IMG/VR virus record: IMGVR_UViG_3300002225_000001
Coordinates: 1 to 43,380 of that record
DNA from: a virus
Reading direction: 5' to 3' (one strand)
Length of the DNA: 43,380 nucleotides
The notes under the pieces were generated by a model, which saw nothing but the letters and a program-made list of their open reading frames with translations, made no database searches and was not told the DNA's origin. This document shows, one piece after another, positions 9,091-13,751 of this stretch; position 1 is the stretch's first letter; the number at the start of each line of letters is the position of its first letter. The translations under genes were made by a program, and so were the position numbers.

Positions 9091-10134
9091 ATGGATGGAT
9101 TAAAAATAGATTTGAGTGGAGTTATTAACACGGCTATTGATGAAAAAATGGCTGAGTTTGATGTTGAAGCACAGATAAAAAATATGTTAGAAGATGTAGC
9201 GAAAAATGCAAGTAAAATATTAACTGTAAAAGTTGAGGGTGGTGCTAAAGAGGGTAAAAAATTCCCTTTGGTGCACAAACAATTTGAGGACTTATTAGCT
9301 GTTGCTAGTATGCAAGGTATTAACACGCTTTTAACTGGTGGTGCCGGTTTGTCAAAAAGTACGGCTGTAGAACAATTAGCTGAAGCTTTTGAGTTGGGCA
9401 TGGGTAGTATATCGTTTTCAAACCAAACTACTAAAACCGATTTATTGGGTTTTGTTGATGCAAATGGTATCTATCGTAAAAGTGGTTTTGTTGATGCGTT
9501 TGAAAATGGTAAAGTGTTTTTAGCTGATGAAATGGATGCGTGTAGTGCTAATGTTTTGGTATTGTTAAATAGTGCCATCTCTAATGGTTTTATAGAAACT
9601 CCTGATGCAAAAGTTATCCATGCTCACGAAAAATTTAGATTTGTTGGAACTGCTAATACCAATTTACGTGGCTCTAAAGATGGTTTTACTGCTAGAAATA
9701 AATTAGATAGTGCAACGATTGATAGATTTGTTGTTATTGATTGGGAACTAGATAAAGACCTAGAAGAAAAACTTACTAATAACAATGGTTGGTTAAAGAT
9801 TGTACGCAAGTGTCGTAAAATCGCAAGTGAACAATTAGAGGGTATTACTATTACTCCTAGAAGTTCTTATGATGGTGCAAAGCTTTTAAAAGCTGGTATG
9901 GACGTTGATAAAGTTATTAGAATGGTAATAATTAAAGCAATGGGTATTGATGAAGAGGAAACTCTACTAAAACCTATTACTGCAAATATGAAAGCAAGTG
10001 CTGTGAAAGATGCCGGTATTAAAAAAGAGAAACGACCTGAAGTGGTAATACCTGAAGTGGGAACACCTAAAGAGGTAGAAGAGCCTGAGTATGAAGAAAT
10101 AGATGATGACGACGTTGAGCCGTTTCAATGGTAA
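9091..10134 (+). CDS. MoxR/CobS-like AAA+ ATPase
   Basis: The 347-residue protein has a Walker A at 83-91 (GGAGLSKST, with Ser where Gly usually precedes Lys), a Walker B at 143-147 (FLADE), sensor 1 around N189 (VGTANTN) and an arginine finger at R212 (DRF). Region order is that of MoxR/CobS-type AAA+ proteins, which remodel partner proteins, often ones with a VWA-like domain. The C-terminus is acidic and repetitive (PEVVIPEVGTPKEVEEPEYEE). The next gene, 12 bases downstream, is the likely partner. The role in infection is unknown. Confidence 0.85.
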   Translation: MDGLKIDLSGVINTAIDEKMAEFDVEAQIKNMLEDVAKNASKILTVKVEGGAKEGKKFPLVHKQFEDLLAVASMQGINTLLTGGAGLSKSTAVEQLAEAFELGMGSISFSNQTTKTDLLGFVDANGIYRKSGFVDAFENGKVFLADEMDACSANVLVLLNSAISNGFIETPDAKVIHAHEKFRFVGTANTNLRGSKDGFTARNKLDSATIDRFVVIDWELDKDLEEKLTNNNGWLKIVRKCRKIASEQLEGITITPRSSYDGAKLLKAGMDVDKVIRMVIIKAMGIDEEETLLKPITANMKASAVKDAGIKKEKRPEVVIPEVGTPKEVEEPEYEEIDDDDVEPFQW

Positions 10135-10146
10135 AAAGGATATATT

Positions 10147-10992
10147 ATGCAATTAGATACTGAAGTAATAGAGGGTTGTAAATCTCTTCATAAAATACCT
10201 ACTTATTTGGAAAAGGCTAATATCCGCAAAGATGATAAGATTATCGAAATGGGTACATTAAGCAACTATAAAAAATTTATGCTTTTACACAAAGACTTTA
10301 GAGGTGCAAGTGAACACTCTTCTATGCAAAATGGTGGTGGAAGTTTTACGGGTGTTAATAATTATGATGACTTCCTAACTCTACTAGATACGGGTGATGA
10401 AGATGTTATGCGAAAAATTAAAATTGAGACAACTAAGCAAGTAGCTGAACTTAGTAAAAAGTATGAAGAGGTTATAGCTAGATATAAGTTTGACACTTCA
10501 GGTCAGTTCTTTGATGTTGGTTTAGTGTTAACGGGTATTCCTGAAACATGGTTAGAGCCTGATAATGTTGAGGAAGAAAAAGTTAGAGTTGAGATTATAA
10601 TCAATGGTACATTCCATTCGGGTGTTAGTAAAGATGATGTTGTGGTTGGTGCTGGTCGTATCTTAGCAATAATAAAAATACTTGAAGATAATGATGTTGA
10701 GGTCAGACTTAAAATTGTATCTTGTATTGATAATTGTGGTCATGGTCACAATTTGTATGTTGCAACTGATGTGAAAGATTATGATGAACCTATTAACTAT
10801 AAAAAATGTTCGGCACTTTTAAGTCCTACATATTTAAGAAGAGGTATGTTTAAAGTAATGGAACTTGTTGCAAAGAAAAAATTGTCTAGTAGTTATGGTC
10901 GTCCAATAAATGTTAATGGTTTTATTGAGATACATCAAAGAAAAAGCATTGATGCGTTAGAAAAAAGATTATTTAAACAAGGAGCAAAATAA
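10147..10992 (+). CDS. probable VWA-like partner of the AAA+ ATPase
   Basis: The 281-residue protein follows the ATPase with AAAAAGGATATATT before its ATG. The C-terminal half has alternating strands and helices (VRVEIIINGTFHSGV, GAGRILAIIKILEDNDVEVRLKIV) in the manner of a von Willebrand A-like fold, without a clear MIDAS DxSxS. Phage MoxR/CobS-like ATPases often have such partners. The substrate and role are unknown. The one-base overlap with the next gene (10992) indicates coupling. Confidence 0.65.
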   Translation: MQLDTEVIEGCKSLHKIPTYLEKANIRKDDKIIEMGTLSNYKKFMLLHKDFRGASEHSSMQNGGGSFTGVNNYDDFLTLLDTGDEDVMRKIKIETTKQVAELSKKYEEVIARYKFDTSGQFFDVGLVLTGIPETWLEPDNVEEEKVRVEIIINGTFHSGVSKDDVVVGAGRILAIIKILEDNDVEVRLKIVSCIDNCGHGHNLYVATDVKDYDEPINYKKCSALLSPTYLRRGMFKVMELVAKKKLSSSYGRPINVNGFIEIHQRKSIDALEKRLFKQGAK

Positions 10993-12804: not shown

Positions 12805-13037
12805 TGACTATTCAATATGAAGGAAATGATATGCACACTATCTATTTGGAAAATAGAAGTATTATAATATCTAAAGCCGAAATCAATGAAATTCAAGAGT
12901 TTAATTTAGAAACTGAGAGGGATTTTGAAAAAACTCGTGAAGAAATGCAAGATGAGATTGATGCAAAAGATGACAAAATCTTAGAATTGACTCTTCAAAT
13001 CATGGAGTATGAGGGAAAAGGTAGTAACGACACCTAA
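12804..13037 (+). CDS. 77-residue coiled-coil protein
   Basis: Start at 12804 follows AAAGGATAAGTA; a second ATG at 12831 also has a fair site (AAGGAAATGAT). The C-terminal half is a charged heptad-like coiled coil (ERDFEKTREEMQDEIDAKDD ...). It is the last gene before the repeat-rich gap, and its 3' end already contains one GTAGTA repeat. Confidence 0.65.
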   Translation: MTIQYEGNDMHTIYLENRSIIISKAEINEIQEFNLETERDFEKTREEMQDEIDAKDDKILELTLQIMEYEGKGSNDT

Positions 13038-13051
13038 AATCTTACTACTTT

Positions 13052-13121
13052 TTACTACCTCGTTACTACCGCTGTACTTCCACGCACAAGGAGGCTACAG
13101 CCAAAGGTAGTAAGGTAGTAA
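13052..13121. repeat. compound inverted repeat
   Basis: Two TTACTACC units (13052-13059, 13063-13070) face two GGTAGTAA units (13106-13121). Between them GCTGTA (13071-13076) pairs with TACAGC (13096-13101). Together these make a long interrupted stem with a 19-base loop. The loop carries AAGGAGG. Confidence 0.65.
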
Positions 13122-13191
13122 TCTTATATGTCACAAGGAAGAAGTTTTAATTTAGAAAAAAATAAAAGATATTTAGTAAAGGAGGGAATAT

Positions 13192-13277
13192 TTACTACTT
13201 TACTACACCATATATTTTATTCTTATCAAACCACCACCACCACGGCACAAAACGGGGTAGTAAAGTGGTAGTTTTTA
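13192..13277 (+). terminator. long-stem terminator-like element
   Basis: Positions 13192-13206 pair with 13257-13271 over 15 bp (about three G-U pairs), and the right arm runs directly into TTTTTAGGG. The 50-base loop is unusually large for an intrinsic terminator. It would end early-operon transcription before the replication genes. Confidence 0.45.
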
Positions 13278-13347
13278 GGGAGTAAAATGTAGTAATGAAA
13301 AATTTTAATAACATGGTTCGTTGCCCAACGCAACGATGTTTGAGATG

Positions 13348-13374
13348 GTAGTAATACCCATTACTACTTTTATT
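13348..13374 (+). terminator. short intrinsic terminator-like hairpin
   Basis: GTAGTAAT-ACCC-ATTACTAC is a perfect 8-bp stem with a 4-base loop followed by TTTTATTT. It lies directly upstream of the promoter at 13385, a sensible place to insulate that promoter from upstream transcription. The stem is AT-rich. Confidence 0.5.
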
Positions 13375-13384
13375 TACAAATTTA

Positions 13385-13393
13385 TGATATACT
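13385..13393 (+). promoter_or_regulatory. extended -10 promoter for the replication operon
   Basis: TGATATACT (13385-13393) is an extended -10 within TTTATGATATACTT, identical to the minus-strand element before the head operon. No convincing -35 is seen. Start is expected near 13400, at the foot of the long leader hairpin. Confidence 0.6.
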
Positions 13394-13405
13394 TTCAACA
13401 TAAGA

Positions 13406-13513
13406 ACGATTAATCTCGTGTCTCCCATGACACAACTTTTCCATCTTCGGATGGAGACACGAGATTAGTCGTAACTTTTAACTAAGTCCAAAGAGAATTG
13501 TTGTGGGAGACAC
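13406..13513 (+). promoter_or_regulatory. leader with mutually exclusive hairpins (putative attenuator or RNase III site)
   Basis: A 20-bp stem forms between 13406-13425 and 13453-13472 with one G-U pair. Inside is CCATC-TTCG-GATGG, a UUCG tetraloop hairpin (13441-13454). The GTGTCTCCCA segment (13418-13427) can instead pair with TGGGAGACAC at 13504-13513, extendable to 15 bp with two wobbles, and that arm is followed by TCTTTTT. The two folds cannot coexist. This is the logic of attenuation, or the long stem may be an RNase III cut site as in T7. The downstream gene starts at 13557. Confidence 0.55.
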
Positions 13514-13556
13514 TCTTTTTGTAGGCTATACAAACTTATACCCAAAAGGAGGAAAC

Positions 13557-13751
13557 ATGTTGAAAGAGATGTTAATCAAAGAAACGTTTACGTACGACAA
13601 GTCTACGGACGAAATCGGTTGGTTACATTTGAACGCTCACAGCAGTAACAAACCTACTGTTCACAAGGGTAAGTATAAGAGACCACCCTATTGCGTTGCT
13701 AGGAATGGTAAACACTGTGCTGTTACATTAATCAAGGAGGTGTTAGGATGA
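13557..13751 (+). CDS. 64-residue protein upstream of primase
   Basis: I choose the ATG at 13557 because AAAGGAGG lies 4-5 bases upstream; an in-frame GTG at 13503 would fall inside the leader structure. The protein begins MLKEMLIKETFTYDKSTDEI, is basic in its second half (HKGKYKRPPYC) and contains two Cys and several His. It overlaps the primase gene by four bases, so translation is coupled. No family recognised. Confidence 0.7.
   Translation: MLKEMLIKETFTYDKSTDEIGWLHLNAHSSNKPTVHKGKYKRPPYCVARNGKHCAVTLIKEVLG

Follow-up and report, generated by a model that had tools for sequence, protein, structure and literature searches.

A candidate cis-acting RNA switch with interlocked alternative helices in the leader of a phage primase operon

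Described leaders with competing folds

Translation of the plasmid replication initiators repZ (ColIb-P9) and repA (IncL/M) requires an upstream stem-loop to pair with a distal sequence; both systems need the translation of a leader peptide (repY or repB) and use an antisense RNA. In attenuators of the pT181 and pIP501 type, the leader of a replication gene combines alternative pairings with an intrinsic terminator with a U-tract and a countertranscript. The leader of the MS2 maturation gene is metastable, and the order in which it folds decides the opening of the Shine-Dalgarno (SD) sequence, while HDV-like ribozymes are built from segments in the order P1, P2, P3 hairpin, P1′, P4 hairpin, P2′, with a P1 of about 7 bp. 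In the timP leader of the timPR type I toxin-antitoxin system, an SL1-SL3 pseudoknot is essential for translation (PMC11228461), and the repZ leader has a translation-activating pseudoknot according to the titles cited in a further paper (PMC10724649). The aapA3 leader is also metastable, its folding order decides SD opening, and its hairpins keep translation off during transcription (PMC6733600).

We analysed a phage leader within a window of 43,380 nt (the whole stretch of DNA studied, positions 1 to 43,380 of IMG/VR record IMGVR_UViG_3300002225_000001). It shares with the repZ and repA leaders a position ahead of a replication gene, and neither a leader peptide nor an antisense RNA was seen here; with the pT181/pIP501-type attenuators, it shares the alternative pairings but not the U-tract, which is not conserved. 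The segment order of the HDV-like ribozymes also recurs in the phage leader, but such a ribozyme was rejected, since in the seven scanned leaders the helix corresponding to P1 runs uninterrupted for 11-20 bp. Like timP, the phage 5′-UTR has mutually exclusive folds that would control translation initiation and an upstream stem-loop that can pair with a stem-loop near the ribosome-binding site, with support from covariation (PMC11228461). The timP pairing is a 7-bp activating pseudoknot in an enterobacterial toxin gene with a known antisense sRNA (PMC11228461), whereas the phage pairing has 14-19 bp, is predicted to repress and precedes a phage primase gene, with no sRNA found. The aapA3 leader differs in layout and its early fold is off, whereas the early fold of the phage leader is predicted to be on (PMC6733600). 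The phage leader is most like the loop-to-loop leaders of replication and toxin genes, with a much longer pairing. Rfam gave no match in the window (the best weak match, preQ1-II, reached 20 bits against the 47 needed), and no description of this leader was found in the open-licence papers searched. We regard it as a putative cis-acting leader switch, the layout of which was not matched here to any described family.

Architecture of the leader in the window

The window phage carries T7-like tail, connector, gp2.5-like, exonuclease and DNA polymerase genes; the proteins scanned from this group of T7-like phages showed no viral RNA polymerase. The leader and the genes that follow it comprise these parts:

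13385-13393, plus strand: extended -10 promoter element TGATATACT, read directly; transcription start predicted at about 13400
13406-13425, plus strand: arm a, the 5′ strand of hairpin 1 (HP1), from the pairing scan and covariation with a′
13418-13432, plus strand: segment X, reaching from upper arm a into the HP1 loop, able to pair with X′ instead, from three-way covariation
13440-13455, plus strand: inner hairpin TCCATC-TTCG-GATGGA inside the HP1 loop, read directly; relatives also have an inner hairpin
13453-13472, plus strand: arm a′, the 3′ strand of HP1, from the pairing scan and covariation
13474-13487, plus strand: small linker hairpin ACTT..AAGT, one pair of which is changed on both sides
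13489-13496, plus strand: arm b, CAAAGAGA, the 5′ strand of hairpin 2 (HP2), with the outward extension AGTC at 13485-13488
13499-13513, plus strand: segment X′ within the HP2 loop, long-range partner of X, from the pairing scan
13514-13521, plus strand: arm b′, TCTTTTTG, the 3′ strand of HP2, with an outer GGCT at 13524-13527
13547-13552, plus strand: SD sequence AGGAGG of the first operon ORF (ATG at 13557), read directly
13557-13751, plus strand: ORF of 64 aa, no family match, missing at this place in the relatives L001, L002 and L013
13748-16132, plus strand: primase of 794 aa with a PriCT-2 domain and a Walker-type helicase-like part, from profile matches

A first-pass annotation of this DNA had described a 20-bp stem with a UUCG-capped inner hairpin and a competing 15-bp pairing, and both are present. 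The HP1 stem (13406-13425 with 13453-13472) has 20 pairs, one of them G·U, and the top of this stem has GGA in common with the inner hairpin; X:X′ (13418-13432 with 13499-13513) has 15 contiguous pairs, including two G·U, and is followed by TCTTTTT at 13514-13520. The promoter proposed at 13385, with transcription starting at the foot of the first stem, also agrees with the extended -10 element and the predicted start, and a -10-like element (TATACT, TATGAT, TATAAT, TACAAT or AATAAT) occupies the same place in all eight leaders of this type. A good -35 is absent, and a plain sigma-70 scan does not list the promoter. The region 13385-13556 has a minimum free energy (MFE) of -49.9 kcal/mol against -31.3 ± 3.8 for its shuffles (z = -4.85), none of 200 shuffles being as stable.

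What the annotation overlooked is the third helix, HP2, which encloses the downstream partner X′. Read from complementarity, HP1 (a:a′) carries X and HP2 (b:b′) carries X′, X is complementary to X′, and the X:X′ helix is incompatible with the top of HP1, which it overlaps in most members, and probably with HP2.

The leader presumably targets the primase (PF08707, E 3e-13; phrog_1156, DNA primase, E 6e-13). In the window, the gene immediately 3′ of the leader is the 64-aa ORF, whose stop overlaps the primase ATG (13748); this ORF is peculiar to the window, and in the relatives read the primase follows the leader directly, with no ORF in between. Immediately upstream of the promoter, positions 13020-13372 hold a block of GGTAGTAA and TTACTACC repeats, which occur in both orientations, and the centre of the block is AT-rich; it is a probable replication origin, which the primase-helicase would bind. 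The type of repeat differs among relatives (GGTGGTCA-type in L013, GGTTCA-type in L078, GTAGTCA-type in L070 and L076), and a distant primase relative is preceded by about nine tandem GGTTA-type pentamers, set among GTGGTCAGAGAA repeats (L096:1040-1095).

Recurrence and covariation in related phages

Relatives were fetched from viral contigs with the primase and the helicase as queries. Seven other phage contigs have the interlocked layout immediately before the primase gene, and their primases range down to 41% identity. One leader is near-identical to that of the window (L013), two have compensatory changes and can be aligned to it (L001 and L002), and four (L005, L070, L075 and L076) have no useful sequence similarity to it, yet their parts follow one another as in the window: a, X, inner hairpin, a′, linker, b, X′, b′, SD sequence and start codon. 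The linker hairpin reads ACTG..CAGT in L001 and L002, and this form is confined to the group of the window, L001 and L002. A possible outer helix between a′ and sequence 3′ of b′ was noticed by eye in L002 (TTAGCC/GGCTAA) and L075 (TTAGGG/CCCTAA). As a side observation, the L075 primase (L075:3983-6415), which has the same kind of leader, shares its N-terminal half with that of the window and is apparently different in its C-terminal (helicase) half, suggesting a domain exchange.

A mechanical scan of both strands of the collected loci (1.96 Mb of strand sequence) searched for two strong interleaved helices, in which X had to begin close to the upper end of the first stem and X′ to follow that stem within 60 nt. 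The architecture proved rare: at a score threshold of at least 67 the scan gave nine pairs, seven of which are the leaders of the window, L013, L001, L002, L005, L070 and L075; the remaining two are a 28-bp inverted repeat with a short pairing (L057) and a repeat array (L058), which, like similar-scoring repeat arrays in L021 and L027, were rejected as leaders of this type. The L076 element lies below the threshold and was recognised by eye, with about one mismatch per helix. Other candidates were also set aside: a conserved string, GTAACTGTTAATTCAGTCCAA, in L062 and L063 is a chance match in unrelated sequence, a GACGAGYCACCAC..CTCG pattern in 25 contigs was taken as chance in all but the L076 contig, and two crossing matches in L108 and L128 lie in GC-rich sequence. 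Neither blastn of the leader or its surroundings against phages and plasmids nor a search of host genome contigs by primase alignment and leader pattern gave a match, and the element was not found at the distant primase relatives L094-L098. It is absent in four other primase clades (L008/L068/L074; L009/L071-L073; L077; L078), which gives it the look of a cassette that can be present or missing in the interval from promoter to start codon; in L077 and L078 at least, promoter-like sequence lies so near the start codon that only a short leader remains.

The leader and promoter of L013 (L013:1002-1184) are 96% identical to the window over 182 nt, whereas its upstream repeats differ and its primase is only 54-56% identical, with 83% nucleotide identity over the first 500 nt of the gene only. 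Hence, leader and promoter would have moved, or been kept, as a block, and on sequence the L013 leader, lying between unrelated upstream DNA and a diverged primase, is a recombination block.

Between the window and L001, the a:a′ helix has four both-sided changes, one change to G·U and no broken pair. In an alignment of the window, L001 and L002, made by hand and comprising few sequences, there were seven both-sided against two broken cells for a:a′, three against one for X:X′ and three against none for b:b′. T13421, whose partner is A13457 in one fold and A13510 in the other, is informative for both pairings, as the three positions change together, to C/G/G in L001 and to G/C/C in L002. This three-way covariation suggests that both alternative pairings, which had been proposed as mutually exclusive from the window alone, are selected. 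Rapid evolution of the leader was considered and rejected, its identity among the window, L001 and L002 (0.72-0.82) being only slightly below that of the primase (0.81-0.85).

The HP2 arms also differ between lineages while their pairing is kept: CAAAGAGA/TCTTTTTG in the window, CAAAAGGA/TCTTTTTG in L001, CAAGTTG/CAACTTG in L002, GGAGCAG/CTGCTCC in L005, CAAGAAG/CTTCTTG in L070 and GAATCAAA/TTTGATTC in L075, with weak arms in L076. In a test devised after the sequences and the pattern had been seen, the arms paired better than shuffled 3′ flanks at p < 0.05 in six of seven leaders (combined p 6e-7). The TCTTTTT noted after the 15-bp pairing is, thus, real as sequence, but it is better read as the 3′ arm of HP2 than as the tail of a terminator, because HP2 pairs the arms that flank X′.

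Ribosome-binding site, proposed switch and competing explanations

In 8/8 leaders, 40-45 nt separate the end of X′ from the start codon, and the length of the leader core is more variable. The b′ arm is pyrimidine-rich and able to pair with the ribosome-binding site, as TCTTTTTG with CAAAAGGA (13543-13550) in the window and AACTTCTT with AAGGAGTT in L070. For opening of the SD sequence within its local sequence, the predicted cost is 3.7-8.4 kcal/mol where the element is present and 0.4-1.9 in the four clades that lack it; compared with shuffles, SD sequestration was only modestly better (combined p 0.003 and 0.019, again in tests designed with the pattern already in view). When the folds were imposed, SD opening was costlier under X:X′ than under HP1 with HP2 in all eight leaders (4.6 and 2.0 kcal/mol, respectively, in the window, 6.0 and 2.0 in L002, 7.1 and 2.6 in L070). 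This gap is clear in the window, L013, L001, L002 and L070, slight in L075, and negligible in L005 (3.8 vs. 3.6) and L076 (2.1 vs. 1.9), the two leaders with weak SD sequestration.

We tentatively favour, at a little short of even confidence, a cis-acting, multi-state 5′-UTR RNA switch acting on translation of the phage replication operon. Our account of the direction of the switch, of folding order and kinetics, of translation and of any trigger is inferred. HP1 and HP2 would fold as soon as they are transcribed; b would then hold b′, leaving the ribosome-binding site freer, and the operon would be translated. Pairing of X with X′ would open HP2 and release b′, which could then pair with the SD sequence and turn translation off. 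HP1 alone would not free the SD sequence, since the unconstrained MFE fold of the window has HP1 formed and the SD sequence still paired by b′.

A plausible use is a self-timed message, translated when new and switched off as refolding proceeds, because the hairpins would fold early and X:X′ is predicted to be more, or nearly equally, stable; a trigger (a protein, an antisense RNA or temperature) would be equally possible. X:X′ is ahead of the two hairpins by about 3-12 kcal/mol in L001, L002, L005, L070, L075 and L076. In the window and L013 the difference is small and slightly favours the two hairpins, so that in these two a timer would stop before refolding was complete. More speculatively, and with only a modest chance of being right, the leaders may constitute a family of phage RNA timers, conserved in architecture and not in sequence, in which the hairpins allow synthesis of the replication protein and refolding is the off state, giving the message a built-in lifetime without protein or ligand. 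If so, a T7-like phage group would govern its entry into DNA replication through the folding of one leader RNA. Keeping the layout and not the sequence would make such leaders invisible to sequence search and explain their absence from Rfam, and they would provide natural compensatory variants for asking whether refolding kinetics can time gene expression.

The best rival is a pseudoknot activator of translation, in which the HP1 loop (X) and the HP2 loop (X′) pair to give the active form, a ribosome stand-by or entry site, and the unpaired form is inactive; it is the best rival because the timP leader and, by the titles cited (PMC10724649), the repZ leader act in this way. We consider it unlikely on the whole, with a minor chance worth keeping in view. 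A 5′ hairpin loop complementary to a hairpin upstream of the start codon is the SL1-SL3 layout of timP (PMC11228461), complementarity of this rep/timP type between a hairpin loop and a downstream element near the start codon, with covariation, is found across the eight leaders, and the constant spacing from X′ to the start codon would fit equally well. However, the 14-19 bp of X:X′ greatly exceed those of timP and overlap HP1, HP2 lies about 30 nt before the SD sequence and does not sequester it, and the predicted cost of SD opening rises when X:X′ forms.

RNase III processing, or protection of the 5′ end against a 5′ exonuclease, would require the alternative pairings only to maintain double-stranded RNA, which needs no conserved sequence, as is seen here; HP1 also begins about 0-6 nt from the predicted transcription start in all members. 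Such a role seems unlikely to us, since it leaves unexplained the complementarity of X′ to the HP1 loop, the retention of the three-way covariation, and the location of X′ in the HP2 loop at a fixed distance from the start codon.

Transcription attenuation, with X:X′ and TCTTTTT as an intrinsic terminator and HP1 as the antiterminator, was the first-pass interpretation and is not supported by comparison with the relatives. The mutually exclusive pairing expected of an antiterminator does exist, as judged from the three-way covariation, and a U-rich tract directly follows X′ in the window, L013 and L001, with six T in the first 8 nt. However, L002, L005, L070, L075 and L076 have only two to four T there, so that a terminator stem followed directly by a U-tract is present in at most three of the eight leaders; the terminator scan gave no match, the loop would be 66 nt long, and the tract is accounted for by HP2 and SD pairing. 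Nor was a conserved short ORF or an SD sequence found within the leader, as would be expected of an ermC-like system: the 13-codon ORF of the window has no counterpart in L002 or L070, which lack an ATG-started short ORF. Judged on these features of its sequence, the leader is neither an intrinsic-terminator nor a leader-peptide attenuator, and we hold attenuation to be very unlikely.

The position of the leader directly after GGTAGTAA-type repeats, which resemble origin iterons, would suit a DNA-level element of the adjoining replication origin, acting through extruded single-strand hairpins or an RNA primer. We find this highly improbable, as the placement tracks the promoter and the start codon, and not the repeats, in every member, the L013 leader is kept next to different repeats, and related phages that retain such repeats (L008 and L078) lack the element. 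The exposed loops of changing sequence in a replication-initiator leader also bring to mind the targets of trans-acting antisense or immunity RNAs in satellite P4 and the I-complex plasmids. We find such a role scarcely credible, given that no 12-nt match to the leader complement occurs elsewhere in the collected sequence of the window, L001, L002, L070 and L075, that L005 has a single match at chance level, and that no promoter was called on the opposite strand.

Outside the finding, positions 9091-10992 of the window encode an AAA_5 ATPase (phrog_249, 'porphyrin biosynthesis') and, after it, a DUF7192 protein.
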